Shown one piece after another: positions 288-12,216 of a stretch of DNA of 59,423 bases. The notes beneath the pieces are model-generated. The model was given only the letters and a program-made list of their open reading frames with translations, had not been told where the DNA came from and ran no database searches. Source of the DNA: Verrucomicrobiota bacterium (GTDB taxonomy: Bacteria; Verrucomicrobiota; Verrucomicrobiia; Limisphaerales; J093); assembly GCA_022710935.1 (NCBI GenBank), contig JAKLFY010000040.1, positions 1 through 59,423 on the forward strand, in the 5' to 3' direction. The number at the start of each line of letters is the position of its first letter. Positions within the stretch are counted from its first letter, which is position 1. A program made the translations under genes and the position numbers.

Positions 288-1868
288 ATGAGACTTTGGT
301 CTGCTGCAATTGCTGCGTCGTTGCTGATGACACTGGGCTCGGGAGGGACTGCCGCCGATTTCGATATTGTCCTGCGCCACGGACGCGTGGTCGACGGCAC
401 CGGCAACCCGGCCTCCTTCGCCGACGTGGCTGTCAAAGACGGTCGCATTGCCGTCGTGGGCCGGGTCGAAGGCCAAGCCAAGTCGGAACTCGACCTGCGC
501 GGCCTGGTGCTCGCTCCCGGCTTCATCGACGTCCATACCCATGTCGATGAACTGGCCGAGCAACCGCTGGCCGAGAACTTCATTCGGATGGGGGTGACGA
601 CTGTGGTAACAGGCAATTGCGGCGAATCCGCTCCGGACGTGAGGCGGTTCTTCGCCGATATCGAGCGGACGGGTGTCACCCTCAACACCGCCACCCTCGT
701 CGGGCACGGGACGGTCCGGGGCCGCGTCATGGGCGGGTCGTTCGACCGCGAGCCGAGCGCGGACGAGTTGGCGCGGATGAAATCCGAGGTCGGCCAGGCC
801 ATGCGCGACGGCGCAATCGGCATGTCGACCGGCCTGATCTATCCCCCCGGCAGCTTCGCCCGGACGCCGGAGATCGTCGAGTTGGCGCGCGTGGTGGCGG
901 CGCACGACGGACTCTACGCCAGTCACATGCGCAACGAAGGACGGGAGATCTTCCCGGCTCTCGACGAGGTGTTCCGGGTCGCGCGCGAGGCCGGTTTACG
1001 GGCTGAGGTCTCGCACATCAAACTGTCAGGCCCGGCGTCGTGGGGGCAGGCTGACACCGTCCTCGGGACCATCGAACGGGCTCGGGCCGAAGGATTGGAC
1101 ATCACCCAGGACCAGTACTCGTACACAGCCGCCAGCACGGGCCTGAGCCAGCTCATCCCGGACCAGGCCCTCGAGGGGGGTGCGGCCGAGTTCGCCCGGC
1201 GTCTGGCCGATCCGGCTTCGAAAGCCGATCTGATTGCCGGGATGAAACGCATCCTCGACCGCGGTGGCCGGACCAACTACGCCTATGCTGTCATCGCGTT
1301 CTGCAAACACGACCAGACCCTCAACGGTCTGAATGTGGTCGAGGCCGCGCGCGCCCGCCGCGGAAGCGACACGCTCGACGATCAGATCGAAACCATCCTC
1401 GACATCGAGCTTCGGGGCGGGGCGGACGGCGTGTTCCACGGGATCAACGAGCAGGATCTGCAGACCTTTCTGCGCCATCCCAACACGATGATCGCCTCGG
1501 ACAGCAGCGTGCGGCGGTTTGGCCAGGGTGTTCCCCACCCGCGCGGCTACGGCAACAACGCGCGGGTGCTCGGCAGGTACGTGCGCGAACTGAAAGTGCT
1601 CCGGCTCGAAGATGCCATCCGCAAGATGACCAGCCTGCCGGCGGCCACATTCCGGCTCGAGGGCCGCGGCCAATTGCGCCCCGGGGCCTGGGCGGATCTC
1701 GTGGCATTCGACCCGGCAACCATTCGGGACACGGCCACATACAACGATCCACATCATTACCCCGAAGGCATCCCGCTTGTCCTGGTGAACGGCGTGCCTG
1801 TCGTCAAAGACGGTCAGGTCACCGGCGCGCGCCCCGGCCGGCCACTGCCGCATGGAAGCCCTCTGTGA
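288..1868 (+). CDS. Exported D-aminoacylase / N-acyl-D-amino-acid deacylase family amidohydrolase
   Basis: Probable metal-dependent amidohydrolase that removes acyl groups from N-acyl-D-amino acids. The start at 288 is chosen because it opens a signal peptide (MRLWSAAIAASLLMTLGSGG); the frame runs open to 105, but that part overlaps the upstream repeat. Mature sequence shows the family order: an N-terminal beta-sandwich strand (DFDIVLRHGRVVDGTG), the metal motif FIDVHTHVDE, VVTGNCGES with the metal-bridging Cys typical of D-aminoacylases, SHMRNEG and EVSHIKLSG histidines, and MIASDSS with the late Asp. It ends with the usual C-terminal beta strand (GAWADLVAFDP). Length of 526 residues is normal. 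The exact substrate cannot be read; dihydropyrimidinase-like relatives are the alternative. No operon partner is visible. Confidence 0.88.
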   Translation: MRLWSAAIAASLLMTLGSGGTAADFDIVLRHGRVVDGTGNPASFADVAVKDGRIAVVGRVEGQAKSELDLRGLVLAPGFIDVHTHVDELAEQPLAENFIRMGVTTVVTGNCGESAPDVRRFFADIERTGVTLNTATLVGHGTVRGRVMGGSFDREPSADELARMKSEVGQAMRDGAIGMSTGLIYPPGSFARTPEIVELARVVAAHDGLYASHMRNEGREIFPALDEVFRVAREAGLRAEVSHIKLSGPASWGQADTVLGTIERARAEGLDITQDQYSYTAASTGLSQLIPDQALEGGAAEFARRLADPASKADLIAGMKRILDRGGRTNYAYAVIAFCKHDQTLNGLNVVEAARARRGSDTLDDQIETILDIELRGGADGVFHGINEQDLQTFLRHPNTMIASDSSVRRFGQGVPHPRGYGNNARVLGRYVRELKVLRLEDAIRKMTSLPAATFRLEGRGQLRPGAWADLVAFDPATIRDTATYNDPHHYPEGIPLVLVNGVPVVKDGQVTGARPGRPLPHGSPL

Positions 1869-3500: not shown

Positions 3501-4002
3501 AGCACCCCGGATGCCATTTTAAGGCGAGTGAATCCTGCTCCAAGACCCGCATGCTGTAATAATCTAATCGTGAATGCCTTATAGATAGGCGAAAAAATGG
3601 CGTTTTCTGATACGCAGCGTCCGCATCTCTTACATCGGGTGCTTCATATGTTAGGAATGCCGACACATTGTAAACCCATATAGTAGTCCGCAGTTTTGTA
3701 TATAATTGATTACCAACATAGTATGCACGGAAACGGGATGTGTAAAGTTCTCCGTCACTACTCGAGCATTGAACGATTCCGGCTGAGCCGGTCGAGCGAC
3801 GCTGACAAAGAGTTCGGAATCATGGCTTTGGAGAATCGCGGGAGCACGGCGACGGCACCCCGGATGAGCGGTTGCACGGCAATTGATGGGGACCTTCTGT
3901 TCGGCCTTCTGCTCGCGTTTGCCTGCGGCGGACACGCAGGCAGTACCAAACAGCAGTATCAAATCGTCAAGGTTGAGGGGTCTCGAATGATCCGTAACTC
4001 CC
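3501..4002. other. Intergenic region left of the integrated element
   Basis: About 500 bases, partly AT-rich around 3550-3610, lie between the VPDSG-CTERM gene and the left attachment repeat. Open frames on both strands reach about 100 codons but show no domain, no signal peptide and no convincing start. Before integration this DNA lay just downstream of the tRNA-Lys gene. Confidence 0.5.
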
Positions 4003-4060
4003 TGCTGCTGAAGTGGTGCCCCGGCTAGGACTCGAACCTAGGACCAATTGATTAAGAGTC
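4003..4060. repeat. attL: Left attachment site (displaced 3' part of tRNA-Lys)
   Basis: 58 bases identical to 12130-12187, which lie inside and just past the 3' end of the tRNA-Lys gene. They cover the anticodon loop, variable region, T arm, acceptor 3' strand and CCA. The copy lacks the 5' half of the tRNA and is therefore the displaced fragment. The integrase gene begins 95 bases further on. Confidence 0.93.
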
Positions 4061-4154
4061 TGTTGCTTACGGGTTTTATCAGGTTGCATGATACTTTGCC
4101 GAATTGCGCAAGAAACCTTGTTTTGCTTAGGAAATATGCGAATTTGGCCACAGC

Positions 4155-5525
4155 ATGACACAACCAAGCAAAACCGCACCAAACGCAGAAAGTGGCCAAG
4201 AAGTGGCCAAGATTTTTCCTTCTGTCTCCCGGTTCGCCGCCGCGGTTTGGGAAAGAAAGATCACCCGCCCGACCTACACCGCCGCCGGCAAGAAGCGGCA
4301 AGTTGAAGAATGGCACGCGCGGATTCAATACGGTGGGAAGCGGAGGTGGGTTCCACTTGGTTCAAATTGCAGGCGGACCGCCGCCCGCCGCGCCGCGGAC
4401 TTCTGGCAACACCTTGTCCAATCGGGATGGGATGAAGCCCTGGCCAAGTTTTGCCCGGACCGCGCCACCGCCGACAAAGAGCCGACAATCGGCGCCCTAA
4501 TCGAAGCCGCGACAACCGCGGGCGCCGCTAAGGGCATTTCACCAAAGACGCTCCGAGGCTACGCCGTGTCCCTTCGTTGGATTGCCGCGCGTGTGTTTGG
4601 CGTCCGCGACACCGCCTCGAAATTCGACTATGCGACCGGCGGGCATGGGCAATGGCAGGCGCGAATCGACAACATTCGGTTGGACCGTCTGACCGGCGCC
4701 AAGGTCCAAGCGGCGCTTGACCGCCACATTGCCGAGGCCGCAGACAACCCGATTGCCGAGCGCAAGGCGCGCGTTTCCGCCGCGAGCCTGTTACGCCAAG
4801 CCAAAGCCCTTTTCAGCCCGCGCCTTGAACTGCCCTTTGCGAACCTGCCCCAAGTGTTCACGAAGGCCACCCCGACCGGCCCCCGGCCCGTGAAGATCGA
4901 GGGCGTTGGCAAGCCGCCCCGGTACAAGTCCACAATTGACGCCGCCTCGCTTCTACGGGACGGCAAAGCCGAGCTTGCCACGCAAGACCCTGAGGCATGG
5001 AAAGCCCTTTTGCTTGCCCTTGGCGCCGGCTTGCGGAAATCGGAAATCGACAATCTGACTTGGCCGCAAATCGACGTTCACAAGAACCTGATTCGAGTTG
5101 AAACAACCGCGACTTTCTCGCCCAAGAGCGACGATTCCGAGGGCGAGGTTTTTGTTGACGCCGGATTGATCCGCGAACTCGAGAGCTTCCGCGACAAGGC
5201 CACCGGGCTTTTCGTGATTGAAAGCGCCAAGCCGCCCCGCCCGAAGTCACCCGTCCCTTACTACCGCGGCGAAGTCGTTTATGACCGCCTCGCCGGCTGG
5301 CTTCGCATGAAGGGCATCTTGACGCACAAACCGATTCACGCGTTGCGCCGTGAATTTGGCTCGATTGTGTGCGCGTCCGCCGACGTTCACACGGCGAGCC
5401 GACAACTGCGCCACGCGGACATTGCCGTAACCTCGGCTTACTACCTTGACGGGCGAAAGCGCGCTGCCCCGCCCGTTGGCGCCATGCTTGGAACCGCAAC
5501 CGCCACCACCGCCGCCACGAAATGA
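4155..5525 (+). CDS. int: Tyrosine recombinase (satellite integrase)
   Basis: Integrase of 456 residues that would recombine the tRNA-Lys site. Residues 1-85 include an arm-binding-like region (TYTAAGKKRQVEEWHARIQY) and 120-240 a core-binding SAM-like domain. The catalytic domain shows GAGLRKSEIDNLTW with the first Arg near residue 295, HALRREFG (HxxR) near 395, LRHADI with the second His, and the nucleophile Tyr429 or Tyr430 in TSAYYLD. It lies 95 bases from the left attachment repeat, where an integrase is expected. Repeats of GTGGCCAAGAA overlap its first codons (4190-4212) and recur at the far end, so Int may repress its own gene when bound there. Start at 4155 is the first ATG; a later start is possible. 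Confidence 0.93.
   Translation: MTQPSKTAPNAESGQEVAKIFPSVSRFAAAVWERKITRPTYTAAGKKRQVEEWHARIQYGGKRRWVPLGSNCRRTAARRAADFWQHLVQSGWDEALAKFCPDRATADKEPTIGALIEAATTAGAAKGISPKTLRGYAVSLRWIAARVFGVRDTASKFDYATGGHGQWQARIDNIRLDRLTGAKVQAALDRHIAEAADNPIAERKARVSAASLLRQAKALFSPRLELPFANLPQVFTKATPTGPRPVKIEGVGKPPRYKSTIDAASLLRDGKAELATQDPEAWKALLLALGAGLRKSEIDNLTWPQIDVHKNLIRVETTATFSPKSDDSEGEVFVDAGLIRELESFRDKATGLFVIESAKPPRPKSPVPYYRGEVVYDRLAGWLRMKGILTHKPIHALRREFGSIVCASADVHTASRQLRHADIAVTSAYYLDGRKRAAPPVGAMLGTATATTAATK
4190..4212. promoter_or_regulatory. Candidate integrase arm-type sites, left
   Basis: Two tandem copies of AAGTGGCCAAG lie within the first codons of the integrase gene. The 23-bp block is repeated exactly at 12069-12091, with a variant at 12027-12050, close to the other attachment site. 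Paired direct repeats near both ends are what integrase arm sites look like. Confidence 0.6.
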
Positions 5526-6347: not shown

Positions 6348-6557
6348 ATGAAGAAAACAGTTGTGGAAAACGAGACGAGCGAGGCGAGACTTTATGACCC
6401 GAACGCGGTTGCGCGAGCCTTTCAATGGCACCCGGAGAGCGTTCGGCGAGCGATCCGCCAAGGGCGAATTCACGCGCTCCGGCTTGGCAACGGTTGGCGC
6501 GTCCCCAGCGACGAACTCGCGCGAATTCTCCGCGACGGGCTTCCGACCGCGAACTAA
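6348..6557 (+). CDS. Excisionase/AlpA-type helix-turn-helix protein
   Basis: A 69-residue protein with one winged HTH of the excisionase (HTH_17/MerR-like) class: LYDPNAVARAFQWHPESVRR, then AIRQGRIHALRLGNGWRVPS with the typical R-x-G-x-x-W-x-x-P wing, then DELARIL. The ATG at 6348 follows CGAACGAAAGGGCGAACGA. It sits between the iterons and the primase, where PICIs carry alpA, and is probably the switch controlling excision or replication. The primase GTG begins 7 bases after its stop codon. Confidence 0.8.
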   Translation: MKKTVVENETSEARLYDPNAVARAFQWHPESVRRAIRQGRIHALRLGNGWRVPSDELARILRDGLPTAN

Positions 6558-6564
6558 ACCCGCC

Positions 6565-8877
6565 GTGAACGCCACCGAATTTGTTTCGCTGCTAGAGGCC
6601 CGCGGGCTTCACCCGGTCCGCAACGGTTCGGGCTGGGCGTCAAAGTGCCCAAGTCACGAAGACGGGAACCCGAGCTTGTCCGTTGCCGAGGGCCGCGACG
6701 GCGCGGTTCTTGTCAAATGCCATGCGAATTGCGCCACAAAAGACGTATGCGCGGCTTTGGGTTGCACCGTGGGCGACTTGTTCCCGGCGCGCGAGAAAGC
6801 CCGTCCTAGTGGCAACGGCGCGCCGCGCGGGCGCATTGTGGCGACCTACCCTTACACCAACGAAAAGGGCGAGTTGCTTTTCGAGGTTTGCCGTTTCGCG
6901 CCAAAAGACTTCAGACAACGCCGCCCGGACCCGACCGCGCCCGGCGGTTGGAATTGGAGCGTCAAGGGCGTTCGGCGCGTCTTGTATCGGTTGCCCGAGG
7001 TTCTGGCCGCCGTCGAAACAGGCCGGCCCATTTACGTTGTCGAAGGCGAAAAAGACGTTGCCGCGCTTGTCCACGCTGGTTTCGAGGCGACAACCTGCCC
7101 GGCGGGCGCGGGCAAGTGGCGAAGCGAATACTCGGACGCCCTGGCCGGCGCCGAGGTTGTCGTTTTGCCCGACGCCGACACGCCCGGAAGGAAGCACGCC
7201 GCACAAGTGGCCCAGGCGCTTTATGGCGTGGCCCGGTCCGTCCGCGTTTGCGAACTGCCCGGCGAGTTGAACGGACGCCCGGTCAAAGATGTTTCGGACT
7301 GGTTTGCCGCCGGCGGGACGCCCGAGCAGTTGCGCGCCATGGCCGACGCGGCGCCGGAATGGACACCGACCCCGGACCCGCGCCCCGAGGGCGAACGCAA
7401 GCCCGAGGCCGGCCCGGCGCAACCGCCGGCGACGTATGCGCCGCTTGCTGCTCGGTACGGCGCGCCGCTGTTTTTCGGCGAAGGCGGGACGGTCCGAGGC
7501 GTCAACGAAAGGTTCTTTGCCGCCCTTGTCCACGCCGCCGGCGACATACTCTTTGAACCGTCCGAACGCGCCTTCTATGAATACACCGCCGCAACCGGAC
7601 TATGGGCGCGCGCGTCCGAGGAACACACCCGCGAGCGCGTCAATGCCCGGCTTGTAGCGTACGGGCGCGAAGTTGCGACGCCGCTTGAAGCAAAGGCGAC
7701 CGCCACCCGCGCGAACGCCGTCTGTTCGCATTTGAAGGCGATAGCCGAACGCCGCGGCGCCTTCGCCCACAAAGGCGACGCAATTCACCTTGCCAATGGC
7801 ACGGTTCGGTTTTCGGACACCGGGCGCGCCACCCTGGCCGCGTTCAGACCCGAGGACTTTTCAAGAAACCGTTGCCCGATACCGTTCAGCGAAACCGCCG
7901 AGTGTCCGCGGTTCATTGACTCGTTTCTACGGACCGCCTTGCCCGAGGCCGACGCCGACTTTCTGCAACGATGGGCTGGGCTGGCCCTGGCCGGCGTGAA
8001 CCCGGCGCAAAGGTTTGTCATTCTGGACGGCGCCGCCGCGACGGGAAAAAGCACGTTTGCCCGGCTCATGCAACTGCTCGTTGGCGCGGAAAACTGCGCA
8101 CAGTTGCGGACCGAACTTCTGCGCGAACGTTTCGAGTTTTTCCGCTTCGTTGGTAAGACGCTTCTACTCGCGCCCGACGTGCCCGGCGACTTCCTAGACC
8201 GGAAAGGTGCGTCCGTTTTGAAGGCCCTGGTTGGCGGCGATCCGCTTACTGCCGAAGCCAAAGGGAGCAACGAAGTCTTTTCCCTGGCCGGGACGTTCAA
8301 CGTTTTGATCACGTCAAATTCGCGCTTGCGCGTCCGGCTTGACGGCGACGCGGGCGCGTGGCGCCGCCGGGTTGTCATAGTGCGTTTCGATCAACCGCCG
8401 CCGACGGTCCGCCTCCCGAACTTCGCCGATAGGCTCGTTGCCGACGAAGGCCCCGGAATTGTCCGCTGGGCGCTTGCTGGTTTCCTTCGTGCCCGGCGGG
8501 AAATTGCCGAGACCGGCGACCTTGCTTTGACAGCCGAGCAAACCGCGCGGGTTGACGGGCTGCTGAACGAGTCTGACAGCGTGCGGCGCTTCCTGGCCGA
8601 ATGCACCGAGGCCGGCGACGGCGACGTTTCAACCACCGAGTTGACGGAAGCTTATTTCGCGTTTTGCGCGTCCCGCGAATGGACCCCGCAACCGGCCCGG
8701 ACCGTGGACCGGACTTTCTCGGACGCTATTCTCGAACTGCATGGCGCAAGTCAAAGGCACGATATTCGACGGGACCGAAAGAGCGTCCGAGGCTGGCGAG
8801 GCGTGGAATTAAGGCGCGAACCGTCCGCGCCCTTGCCCGAGGCGCCCGAGCTTGAACCGGAGGTTGCTTATGTCTGA
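6565..8877 (+). CDS. Primase-helicase (zinc-finger primase, TOPRIM, SF3-type ATPase)
   Basis: Replication protein of 770 residues for the satellite. Near residues 27-57 it has CPSHED ... C-H-A-N-C, the zinc-binding head of phage and plasmid primases. Near 158-205 a TOPRIM domain shows VVEGEKDVAAL and VVLPDADTPG. After a Pro-rich linker (about 265-290) comes a D5-like region and a superfamily-3-type helicase with Walker A GAAATGKST near 489-497 and a Walker B-like LLLAPDVPGD. A GTG start at 6565 is chosen because it follows the HTH stop codon and leaves the zinc head intact; the open frame to 6361 overlaps the HTH gene and is not needed. It is likely to act at the iterons at 6150-6244. Confidence 0.88.
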   Translation: MNATEFVSLLEARGLHPVRNGSGWASKCPSHEDGNPSLSVAEGRDGAVLVKCHANCATKDVCAALGCTVGDLFPAREKARPSGNGAPRGRIVATYPYTNEKGELLFEVCRFAPKDFRQRRPDPTAPGGWNWSVKGVRRVLYRLPEVLAAVETGRPIYVVEGEKDVAALVHAGFEATTCPAGAGKWRSEYSDALAGAEVVVLPDADTPGRKHAAQVAQALYGVARSVRVCELPGELNGRPVKDVSDWFAAGGTPEQLRAMADAAPEWTPTPDPRPEGERKPEAGPAQPPATYAPLAARYGAPLFFGEGGTVRGVNERFFAALVHAAGDILFEPSERAFYEYTAATGLWARASEEHTRERVNARLVAYGREVATPLEAKATATRANAVCSHLKAIAERRGAFAHKGDAIHLANGTVRFSDTGRATLAAFRPEDFSRNRCPIPFSETAECPRFIDSFLRTALPEADADFLQRWAGLALAGVNPAQRFVILDGAAATGKSTFARLMQLLVGAENCAQLRTELLRERFEFFRFVGKTLLLAPDVPGDFLDRKGASVLKALVGGDPLTAEAKGSNEVFSLAGTFNVLITSNSRLRVRLDGDAGAWRRRVVIVRFDQPPPTVRLPNFADRLVADEGPGIVRWALAGFLRARREIAETGDLALTAEQTARVDGLLNESDSVRRFLAECTEAGDGDVSTTELTEAYFAFCASREWTPQPARTVDRTFSDAILELHGASQRHDIRRDRKSVRGWRGVELRREPSAPLPEAPELEPEVAYV

Positions 8878-9247
8878 CCGTGACATAACCGAGAGTTTAC
8901 AGAGTTTCACCGGGTTGCACGTCTCGGACGTTTCGGACGCTACATTTTTACTCGGAGACACTCGCGCGGGGGGGGAGAGAACAGAGAAGGAAGACAGAGA
9001 AGCCAAAAACATGGAACGGTGTGGACATTTACCCGTCCGAAACGTCCGAGAACACAACCAAGCGCAACCCGCCGCGAGTCCGATCACCGACGCCGTGTTC
9101 TGGCATTTGCTGGCAACCTGGCCCGCCGCCCGAGAACACCCACGCTGGCGCGACCGGCCCGAACTCCGGCGGGAAGTGGCCCGGCTCGAACGCCGCCGCC
9201 GAGCATGGCGACCGGCGAGGTTCAGGTTTCCAAACGACAGCCAATGA
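8870..9247 (+). CDS. Small satellite protein of unknown function
   Basis: A 125-residue frame whose ATG overlaps the primase end by 8 bases. N-terminal part (MSDRDITESLQSFTGLHVSD) is polar; the C-terminal part is Arg-rich (RREVARLERRRRAWRPARFR). A run of eight G at 8968-8975 lies inside and could slip. No family is recognised. The main evidence that it is real is overlapping coupling on both sides. Confidence 0.5.
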   Translation: MSDRDITESLQSFTGLHVSDVSDATFLLGDTRAGGERTEKEDREAKNMERCGHLPVRNVREHNQAQPAASPITDAVFWHLLATWPAAREHPRWRDRPELRREVARLERRRRAWRPARFRFPNDSQ

Positions 9248-9453
9248 ACGCACGCCCACAACCCGACCGACCGCCGGACCGCCCAGGCGCCACCGACCCG
9301 AGGCCGCGAGGCATGGCGATCCGACCGACCCCGAGACTTTCACGCCGCCGCGCGTTTGCCGTGGCTGGGCTGCTGGTTCTCATGCGGGCGCTTCACGCCG
9401 GCTTGCGAGTATGCGCCCAAACCGTTGACACCCTGGAAGGCCGCCGCCTATGA
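9244..9453 (+). CDS. Small satellite protein with hydrophobic C-terminal segment
   Basis: 69 residues, ATGA overlap with the previous gene and again with the next. The first 35 residues are Pro/Arg-rich; residues 38-58 (AFAVAGLLVLMRALHAGLRV) are hydrophobic enough for one membrane segment. No family is recognised. It could be a translation-coupling artefact, but the unbroken ATGA chain argues for a gene. Confidence 0.4.
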   Translation: MNARPQPDRPPDRPGATDPRPRGMAIRPTPRLSRRRAFAVAGLLVLMRALHAGLRVCAQTVDTLEGRRL

Positions 9454-9713
9454 GACACCCGCGACAGCCCGAGCTTGACCTTGGCCCCGAGGCGCCGCCG
9501 CGGGAAATGGTAGTGGCTGGCCCCGACCTTGCCCGGACCATTGGCGAGCTTCGCGCCGCCGGGTATGAAGTTGCGGCAATGGACACCAAGGGCGCAACAT
9601 ACCGTCTGCACGTCCGGCGCGTGGCCCCCCCCCCCCTTGCCAAGAAAACTGTTACCCCCCCCCGCCCGGACGCGGTACGCGGAGGACCGTTCCTTTCTCG
9701 TGACACCCCCTGA
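9450..9713 (+). CDS. Small satellite protein with poly-C tracts (possible phase-variable frame)
   Basis: 87 residues as read. MRHPRQPELDLGPEAPPREM is followed by a compact alpha/beta stretch (VAGPDLARTIGELRAAGYEV, AAMDTKGATYRLHVRRV). A run of twelve C at 9625-9636 and one of nine C at 9655-9663 follow. As sequenced the frame stops at 9713. Losing one C moves reading to the frame that stops at 9757-9759, giving an ATGA overlap with the next gene, exactly like the other genes of this operon. So the intact product may be about 102 residues, with the present sequence either a slipped (off) state or a homopolymer sequencing error. No family is recognised. Confidence 0.5.
   Translation: MRHPRQPELDLGPEAPPREMVVAGPDLARTIGELRAAGYEVAAMDTKGATYRLHVRRVAPPPLAKKTVTPPRPDAVRGGPFLSRDTP
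9625..9663. repeat. Poly-C tracts C12 and C9
   Basis: Two homopolymer runs, 9625-9636 and 9655-9663, lie inside a small coupled ORF. Tracts of this length are classic slipped-strand mispairing sites and also common sequencing error sites. Confidence 0.9.
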
Positions 9714-9755
9714 AACCAAATTTCCGCTTTCGTTTCCGCTTTCCGCTTTTGTCCT

Positions 9756-10769
9756 ATGAGAAAACCCACAACGAAACTACTGGCCGAGAAATACAACACA
9801 ACGGCGCGGACGATCCGCAACTGGCGCCGTCAAGGCGCGCCACTAAGCGACGCGAAGGCAATGCAAACCTGGCTCGCCGGGCGCCGGTCCGCACCCCCCG
9901 CCATCGGTCCGACCAAAGCGCCGCCGAAACCACCCGCGCCACCGCAAAAGTCAACCAAAGCACCGCCGGCGCCGCCACCGCTGAAACCGAAGGCCGAGGT
10001 TGTCGGCAAGCTGGGCGCACCCGAGGCGCTGCGCCGCCTTGAAAAAGCCGAGGTTGCTGCCTTCGCAAATTTGGAGGCCGCCCTTGCAACTGGCAACGCG
10101 CTCCAAGTTCAAGCCGCAAGGCGCGGTTACTTGGAAACGACAGAGCAACTACGGAAGGCCGACTTGGCCATTACTGAAAGCCGCCGGACTTCGGGCGAAA
10201 CACTTTCACGCGCGGACGTGGAACACTTCGCCGAACGTGCGGGACGCGCCCTTGGCTTGCTGGGCTTCGAGCTTACCCAAGGTTTGGCCGGCGAGGTTGC
10301 CCGGCAGACCGAACCCGGCGCCATTATTCACTTGCTGCGAACCGCTTTCGACAACCGCTTGCGCCTCGCCCTGGCCGGCCCCGAGGACGTTGTTCCTTCG
10401 TGGCTTCGCCGGGCATTCACTAAGGGCGCCGCCCTTGGCCCCGGCGCCGAGGACTGGGTTGAAAGCTTCGCCACCCTGGCGCGCGCCTTCGTTGCAACGC
10501 ATGACGCGTCCGTTTTGGAAGCCGCCCGCCGGGCCGAACTCGAAAACGAAATGAACGCGAAGCTTTGGGCGGACGGTCTGGCCGCGTTACGGCGAGGCAA
10601 TCTTGACGAGCTGCCCGGCTTGGCCCTGGACAAGTGGAATGTAATGCGCGCGGACCTTGGCTTGCCACCGCGCCCCCGCGCCCCGACCGGCGCCGAGATA
10701 AAGCGCGCCCGAGAAATGCGCCTCGCCGGGACGCTGGCGCCCGACGCCGACGTTCCTTTGGACCCGTGA
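9756..10769 (+). CDS. HTH protein, possible terminase small subunit-like (TerS)
   Basis: 337 residues. The first 30 (TKLLAEKYNTTARTIRNWRR QGAPL) form a helix-turn-helix like those of phage DNA-packaging small subunits. Residues about 48-80 are a Pro/Lys linker (PPKPPAPPQKSTKAPPAPPP). The rest is helical, with YLETTEQLRKADLAITESRR and a long charged C-terminal part. In PICIs a TerS redirects packaging to satellite DNA. Position near the end of a satellite operon fits that role. This is inference; a replication or plasmid-partition DNA-binding protein is the alternative. The ATG overlaps the stop of the alternative frame of the preceding gene. Confidence 0.6.
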   Translation: MRKPTTKLLAEKYNTTARTIRNWRRQGAPLSDAKAMQTWLAGRRSAPPAIGPTKAPPKPPAPPQKSTKAPPAPPPLKPKAEVVGKLGAPEALRRLEKAEVAAFANLEAALATGNALQVQAARRGYLETTEQLRKADLAITESRRTSGETLSRADVEHFAERAGRALGLLGFELTQGLAGEVARQTEPGAIIHLLRTAFDNRLRLALAGPEDVVPSWLRRAFTKGAALGPGAEDWVESFATLARAFVATHDASVLEAARRAELENEMNAKLWADGLAALRRGNLDELPGLALDKWNVMRADLGLPPRPRAPTGAEIKRAREMRLAGTLAPDADVPLDP

Positions 10770-12000
10770 AATGGGCCGGTCCGTTCTATCGGCCCGACTC
10801 GCGAACGTGCGTTGTAGGGCAAGCCAGAGGCCTTCTTTTCCCGACCGGCCCGCCGAAACGGCGGTTTTCGACCGTCCGGCGCCAGAAACACCGCGCCGCG
10901 CCCGCGGACAAAACGCCGCACAAGGCCACCTAGACGCCCTGGCCCGCGCCCGTGGACGGTCCGCACCGCTGACACCCGGCCCGCCTCGAAGGGCGCACCC
11001 CGAGGCCCTGGCGCGCGCCCGTGGCCACCCTAGCAAGGTCAACGAGAGTATGGCCCGAGGTTGACGCCGAGGCCCGAGGCGCTGCCCGCCACCGCAACCG
11101 TTGGCCACCCGCCCGCCGGACGTGGCAACCGTTCGCGTCCCGGGGCGAAGAAACCGGCGGTCCGCCTCGAAACCGAAGGCCGCCGTGGCCCGGCGGACGC
11201 AACGCCCGACGCGAAGGCGCCGGCCCCCGAGACCGCCGCCGACGGAAGGAAGGCCCCGACCGTTGCCCGAGGCCCCGACTGGCCGGCGAGGCGATCCGCC
11301 CCGGCGATCACGCAAGACCGCGCGAGGCCCTGACCCCGAGACCCTCGCCCCGCCGGATGAAGGCCCGACCCCGAGGCCCCCGGCGATCATGGCCGGCGCG
11401 GCGCCACCCGTCCCGACGCCGAGGCCGGACGCCCGACCGGCCCCGAGAGGAAGGCGCCTTCCTGGCCCCAAGGCGATCCGCGCCCCGACCGGCAAGACCG
11501 GCCCCGAGACACCCCGAAGCGAGACCCGACCGGCGGGAAGGCGATCCGCCACAAGCCCCCGCCTTCGCGCCCAATTGACACGAGACGCACCGAAAGCCCC
11601 GCCGCCACCCTGGACACCCCGAGGCCGATCCGCCCCGCCGAGGCCCCGACCGCGAGGGCGACCCCCAGGCGGACCCGACGCCCCGGACCGGCGCCGCCCT
11701 GGCGCTTCGAGGCCCGGCCCGACCGCCGAGGCGATCACCCGAGGCCTTGGCCCGACCCCGAGGCCGCCGGCGATCATGGCCGGTTGGCGATCCGCCGCGA
11801 AGGCCGACCCTGGCCCGAGGCCCGACCGACGGGAAGGCGGTCCGCGACGGTAACGCCCGGCGCCCGTCGTTGTGACCCTGGCCAGCGAGGCGATCACCGG
11901 ACCGCGAGGCTGTGACTCCCGACCGGACGCCGGCGAAGTGGCAAAGACACCCTGGCTGGCGAGGCCCGCCGCTTCTCATTTTCACCCGGACTTGTGGCCA
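10770..12000. other. GC-rich repetitive tail of the satellite, no credible gene
   Basis: About 1.2 kb of extreme GC DNA built from short motifs such as CCCCGAGGCC, GAGGCGATCCGCC and GGCGATCATGGCCGG. A 33-base segment at 11364-11396 returns at 11751-11783 with one mismatch. Long open frames exist on both strands at once, but they encode only Pro/Arg/Gly low-complexity sequence, as expected when stop codons are rare. It could be a structured RNA, packaging or replication region, or decaying repeats. Confidence 0.6.
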
Positions 12001-12026
12001 AGGGCGGCGGATTTGCACCCTGAAAG

Positions 12027-12091
12027 ACTGGCCAAGAAGTGGCCAAGAAGCCCGACCGCCGCCGCGACAAGTGGCCAAGAAGTGGCCAAGA
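12027..12091. promoter_or_regulatory. Candidate integrase arm-type sites, right
   Basis: GTGGCCAAGAAGTGGCCAAG occurs at 12069-12091 as an exact match to 4190-4212, and as a close variant at 12027-12050. The pairs sit 40-100 bases inside the right attachment site, mirroring the left end. Confidence 0.6.
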
Positions 12092-12129
12092 CGCGCTTGG
12101 GATTGTCGGTCGGATTCTTCGTAACCCCT

Positions 12130-12216
<87 letters not shown>

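Follow-up and report, generated by a model that had tools for sequence, protein, structure and literature searches.

Two C runs in the predicted disordered tail of a small gene upstream of a terS-like gene in a putative phage satellite of a Verrucomicrobiota bacterium

Introduction

Two long runs of C lie near the 3' end of a small gene, designated smORF2, that immediately precedes a terS-like gene, and the locus raises the question of what a change in the length of either run would do to the two genes. The window is the whole stretch of DNA that was analysed, 59,423 nucleotides of contig JAKLFY010000040.1 (assembly GCA_022710935.1). An earlier note on this DNA had proposed phase variation that turns smORF2 on and off and that could also alter coupled expression of the terS-like gene. 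The reading preferred here, with slightly more confidence than doubt, is that the C runs represent proline codons prone to slippage, located in the disordered C-terminus of smORF2 and ahead of terS in a phage satellite integrated at a tRNA gene.

Table 1. Features of the element in the window, and homologues of smORF2 in other genomes
Feature	Position	Strand	Length	Remarks
Left att repeat	3983..4067	+
Tyrosine integrase	4155..5525	+
Primase/helicase	6361..8877	+		phrog_6088, 3.6e-81; start uncertain
smORF1, small membrane-like ORF	9313..9453	+		ATGA-coupled to smORF2; start inferred
smORF2, small gene	9450..9713	+	87 aa	conserved domain residues 1-58 (9450-9623); tail from 9624 variable
C12 tract	9625..9636	+		sequence run list
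Alternative (f1) tail frame	9637..9759	+		open to ATGA over terS-like start; entered only when one C is lost or two are gained
C9 tract	9655..9663	+		sequence run list
Block conserved with C81	9668..9717	+		between tract and terS; local alignment of upstream regions, 0/500 shuffles as good
Three TTTCCGC heptamers	9721..9746	+		directly before terS; C81 has two
terS-like gene	9756..10769	+	337 aa	own phrog_57 match weak (0.052); 41% identical to C81 homologue (phrog_57, 3.4e-6)
Right att repeat	12110..12194	+		overlaps tRNA-Lys(ctt) gene 12141-12216
Homologue G012:C81			82 aa	C8 at same place; nearest relative
Homologue G012:C91			159 aa
Homologue G011:C105			77 aa
Homologue G011:C188			78 aa
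Homologue G046			68 aa
Homologues G268 (two)			71 and 80 aa
Homologue G193			92 aa
Homologue G608	L039 1408-1641	-	77 aa	ATGA-coupled to terS-like gene 850-1411 (-)

The satellite element

The integrated element is approximately 8.2 kb in size between its att repeats, with the gene order tyrosine integrase, an unmatched ORF, a xis-like HTH ORF, primase, a repeat-rich stretch, smORF1, smORF2 and the terS-like gene. An integrase with att repeats at a tRNA gene and a replication gene of its own, two of the features by which a satellite with its own terS is recognised, are both present. No match to capsid or tail genes was found among the ORFs scanned, which extend to the end of terS; the identity of terS is assigned through the C81 homologue. 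Fold matches of the terS-like protein were helical and uninformative, its model being poor (mean pLDDT 58), and were set aside. Rfam yielded tRNA only, and a second terS-like copy was not found in the organism's own genome. IMG/VR, searched with terS, primase and three smORF2 queries, returned no close relatives, and the exact flank pattern of the tract gave 0 matches in its viral contigs. Phage records (terS and smORF2 queries) and plasmid records (smORF2 query) gave no match. A primase search of genome contigs found one planctomycete contig, in which smORF2 was not recognised by eye in the three forward-frame translations. The second half of smORF1 is conserved in C81 and C91 (SRRRA...LHA.LR.CA.TVD.LEGR).

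A repeat-rich stretch resembling an iteron origin lies downstream of the replication gene in the window (8900-9060) and in L014 (1218-1348), L011 (1826-1969), L015 (1918-2046) and L012 (1760-1824). The iteron-like repeats are 9-11 nt long and often surround a palindrome, for example CCCCCCCTATATAGGGGGG; the stretch in the window also holds a perfect 18-nt inverted repeat (8922-8939/9034-9051) flanking G8, and the ORF at 8852-9247 is possibly no gene. Positions 10770-12100, from terS to the tRNA, hold approximately 1.3 kb of low-complexity sequence rich in G+C (GAGGCCCGACC-like), in which no gene is evident. In the C81 element terS is followed by a gene (L016 9998-10510, +) like a phage head scaffolding protein (phrog_673, 2.6e-9), which makes capsid remodelling by the satellite possible. 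PEP-CTERM-like tails on proteins in the window suggest a Verrucomicrobia-like host.

C tracts and reading frames

Re-reading of the sequence confirmed C12, C9 and the frame starting at 9450 as the earlier note had described them; the ORF encodes 87 aa as sequenced and its stop codon occupies 9711-9713. The two tracts are separated by 18 nt, a locally unusual spacing, and both sit within the coding frame of smORF2, as the tracts of phase-variable homopolymer loci do; C12 encodes residues 59-63. The in silico frame test also reproduced the predicted effect of losing one C, namely a 102-aa frame ending as ATGA over the terS-like start, in which the TGA at 9757-9759 overlaps the ATG at 9756 of the 337-aa ORF. 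A first tract of 11 or 14 C, or a second tract of 8 or 11 C, yields 102-103 aa and an end on the terS ATGA; C10 or C13 in the first tract gives 83-84 aa, and the other tested lengths fall overall at 83-88 aa. Depending on the phase, translation would stop 42 or 52 nt ahead of the terS start or overlap it by 4 nt. The ATGA coupling reported for other genes of the operon is present at 5522 (integrase and next ORF) and at 9450 (smORF1 and smORF2).

The ATGA ending is weak as a coincidence. The TGA frame remains open from C12 to the terS start in 0.40 of 5000 dinucleotide shuffles, and 186 of the 692 ATGs in the window are ATGA, so that the chance level for this one frame is about 0.1. The tract itself was compared with the 7.52-Mb genome, where C/G runs of at least 10 number 14 and runs of at least 12 number three (12, 12, 17; counts merged by hand). 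An independent-base estimate, calculated by hand with the window GC content of 63.5%, would allow approximately 105 and 11, respectively, so that a single C12 is unremarkable genome-wide. Of 14 genomes examined in the family, 11 contain runs of at least 11. Very long C/G runs, which may not be real, lie inside contigs of related genomes (G001:C7:23493-23537, G001:C12:96449-96514, G003:C3:180115-180149).

Domain and tail of smORF2

The homologues align across residues 1-58 and diverge beyond. An AlphaFold2 model of smORF2, built from 9 aligned sequences only, predicts a beta-alpha-beta-beta core over residues 18-57 (E18-23, H24-36, E39-47, E50-57), with block-mean pLDDT of 80-89 for residues 21-60 and 54-56 past residue 60, and the tail beyond the domain is predicted to be disordered. 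The protein has no family match, and a fold search in PDB and BFVD gave no match at E <= 0.001. Since the domain ends before the first tract, a change in tract length cannot break the predicted domain, which is retained at every length tested, the tail alone being altered. A simple on/off switch of smORF2, as the earlier note had proposed, is accordingly rejected. Codon usage over 9637-9713 scores 0.178 in the sequenced frame vs -0.158 in the alternative frame (training values 0.297 +/- 0.134 in frame and 0.059 +/- 0.187 out of frame).

Homologues and coupling to terS

A domain profile search across 320 genomes of the order found matches in 7, at 10 loci if the window is counted; G078 (E 8.1e-4, internal stop), weak class-level matches outside the order and G091 were left out of the homologue count. 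Eight of the nine homologues are short (68-92 aa), with tails unlike one another, and the ninth, C91, has 159 aa. A C run of at least 8 is found in C81 alone, where C8 occupies the same site. Short homologues without poly-C had been named beforehand as the observation that would speak against phase variation, and this is nearly the situation encountered, as seven of the eight short forms lack such a run.

A terS-like gene follows smORF2 in the window, in C81 (phrog_57, 3.4e-6), in C91 (phrog_57, 1.7e-13) and in G608, where it matches the terS family phrog_4102 at 8.3e-4; among the other homologues the next gene was scanned in G193 only, and had no terS match. Different terS families thus accompany smORF2, phrog_4102 being that of G608. 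Natural ATGA coupling to the next gene occurs in one of the nine homologues, the distant G608, so that coupling of smORF2 to a terS-like gene is possible as such. In C81 none of the frames from C8 reaches terS, the three giving differing short tails only, and in C91 the smORF2 frame continues past the terS start. The terS or next gene of C81, C91 and G193 starts ATGA, yet the smORF2 frame ends elsewhere; the ATGA there therefore mainly reflects an A-initial second codon. The interpretation in the earlier note is partly supported: its account of tracts and frames is right, a terS-like gene does follow smORF2, the nearest relative has C8 at the corresponding site, and G608 is coupled, but the on/off switch is not supported and C81 and C91 show no coupling to terS.

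The block upstream of terS

Differences between the window and C81 in the block after the tracts are distributed 11/4/4 by position, with the 11 falling at codon position 3 of the alternative frame (hypergeometric 0.0066 for this class, approximately 0.02 over three frames). This bias, absent between the window and C91 (9/6/8) and between C81 and C91 (8/7/8), suggests evolution as if the alternative frame were coding. The in-frame tail of C91 resembles the alternative-frame tail of the window, which also favours a real peptide; against one stand the lack of bias in the two other pairs, the codon usage up to 9713 and, in C81, a frame that closes immediately after C8. The block could also be a DNA site before terS rather than a peptide. 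The upstream regions of C91 and G026 are similar (9/500 shuffles as good), and no smORF2 was recognised before terS in G026. No Shine-Dalgarno-like stretch ahead of terS was seen by eye. The TTTCCGC repeats are absent from C91 and G193, and G193 shows no similarity to the block.

Alternative explanations

On the preferred reading the tail would be loosely constrained, and the C runs would for that reason be free to grow and shrink. A length change would replace the last 25-45 residues, for a total of 83, 87 or 102 aa, and would shift the stop within a range from 52 nt ahead of the terS start to a 4-nt overlap with it; smORF2 would be neither switched on nor off, and TerS output would be affected, if at all, as a by-product or through mild tuning. 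The end of domain conservation at the tract, the varied homologue tails, the codon usage of the sequenced frame and the C8 of C81 support this reading; the third-position bias against C81, the likeness of the C91 tail, the coupling in G608 and the alignment of only 9 sequences count against it. The main rival, unlikely though to be taken seriously, is that the assembled tract length is wrong or that a slip has become fixed in this copy, in which case the coupled 102-aa form with ATGA over terS would be the real or ancestral gene. The alternative frame is open to that ATGA and carries the third-position bias, and G608 raises the possibility that the genuine form in the window is the coupled one; PMC11140927 reports that read accuracy already falls at homopolymers of 8 on three platforms. 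Against an error or fixed slip stand the codon usage favouring the sequenced frame to 9713, the uncoupled state of C81, C91, G193 and others, and the chance level of the coincidence.

Adaptive phase variation, in which slippage flips the tail, couples or uncouples terS translation and sets the efficiency of satellite self-packaging, is considered improbable. Two close tracts, the C8 that C81 has at the corresponding site, a coupled stop in one of three phases and the recurrence of terS behind smORF2 in four loci are consistent with it. C81, however, has no frame from C8 to terS, eight of nine homologues have no C run of at least 8, and the tract lies at the 3' end past the domain, whereas gene-inactivating tracts, poly-A/T in PMC2831843, are described as biased to the 5' end. 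Still harder to credit is a satellite slippage switch on its own packaging, in which C-run length would determine if ribosomes that finish smORF2 terminate at the start of terS, and the population would always mix weak and strong packagers. About as improbable as adaptive phase variation is conservation of 9668-9753 as DNA (a packaging start site or terS leader), with the C runs merely in the preceding spacer: the shuffle results for C81 and for C91 with G026, the heptamers and the missing Shine-Dalgarno-like stretch would fit, but C91 and G193 lack the heptamers, G193 lacks the similarity, and the third-position bias suggests coding. A sequence CCC-C favours +1 ribosomal slippage, and the direction is right, since skipping one base takes a ribosome out of the sequenced frame and into that of the ATGA. 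Programmed slippage of this kind, which would leave the DNA unchanged and yield small amounts of a 102-aa protein terminating at the terS start, is the least probable of the explanations; in C81 the +1-shifted frame stops at once.

Comparison with known systems

Like the phase-variable poly-G/C contingency loci of, for example, Campylobacter and Neisseria, as described in PMC8355987 and PMC5084427, smORF2 has long poly-C in a coding frame, where a one-base change shifts the frame. Unlike in those loci, the tract lies past the folded domain at the 3' end, the domain is kept in all phases, the nearest relative does not share the downstream effect, and a single assembled tract length is at hand. 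Were the tract to vary in length and to control TerS output, the packaging step of a satellite would be under a contingency switch, of which a literature search found no case. As it stands, the locus is a probable slippage-prone tail, mainly useful as a caution, because a shift of one base is expected to lead to an ATGA by chance about 1 time in 10.

PICIs are phage satellites with a terS of their own. The element resembles satellites of that kind in its integrase at a tRNA gene, xis-like HTH ORF, primase and terS-like gene, and in the lack of capsid and tail matches among the ORFs scanned; it differs in that smORF2 has no family match. As a small satellite with excision and replication genes it is also like the marine PICMI satellites (PMC10803314), for which that report states that no terS homologue was found; unlike them, the present element has a terS-like gene.
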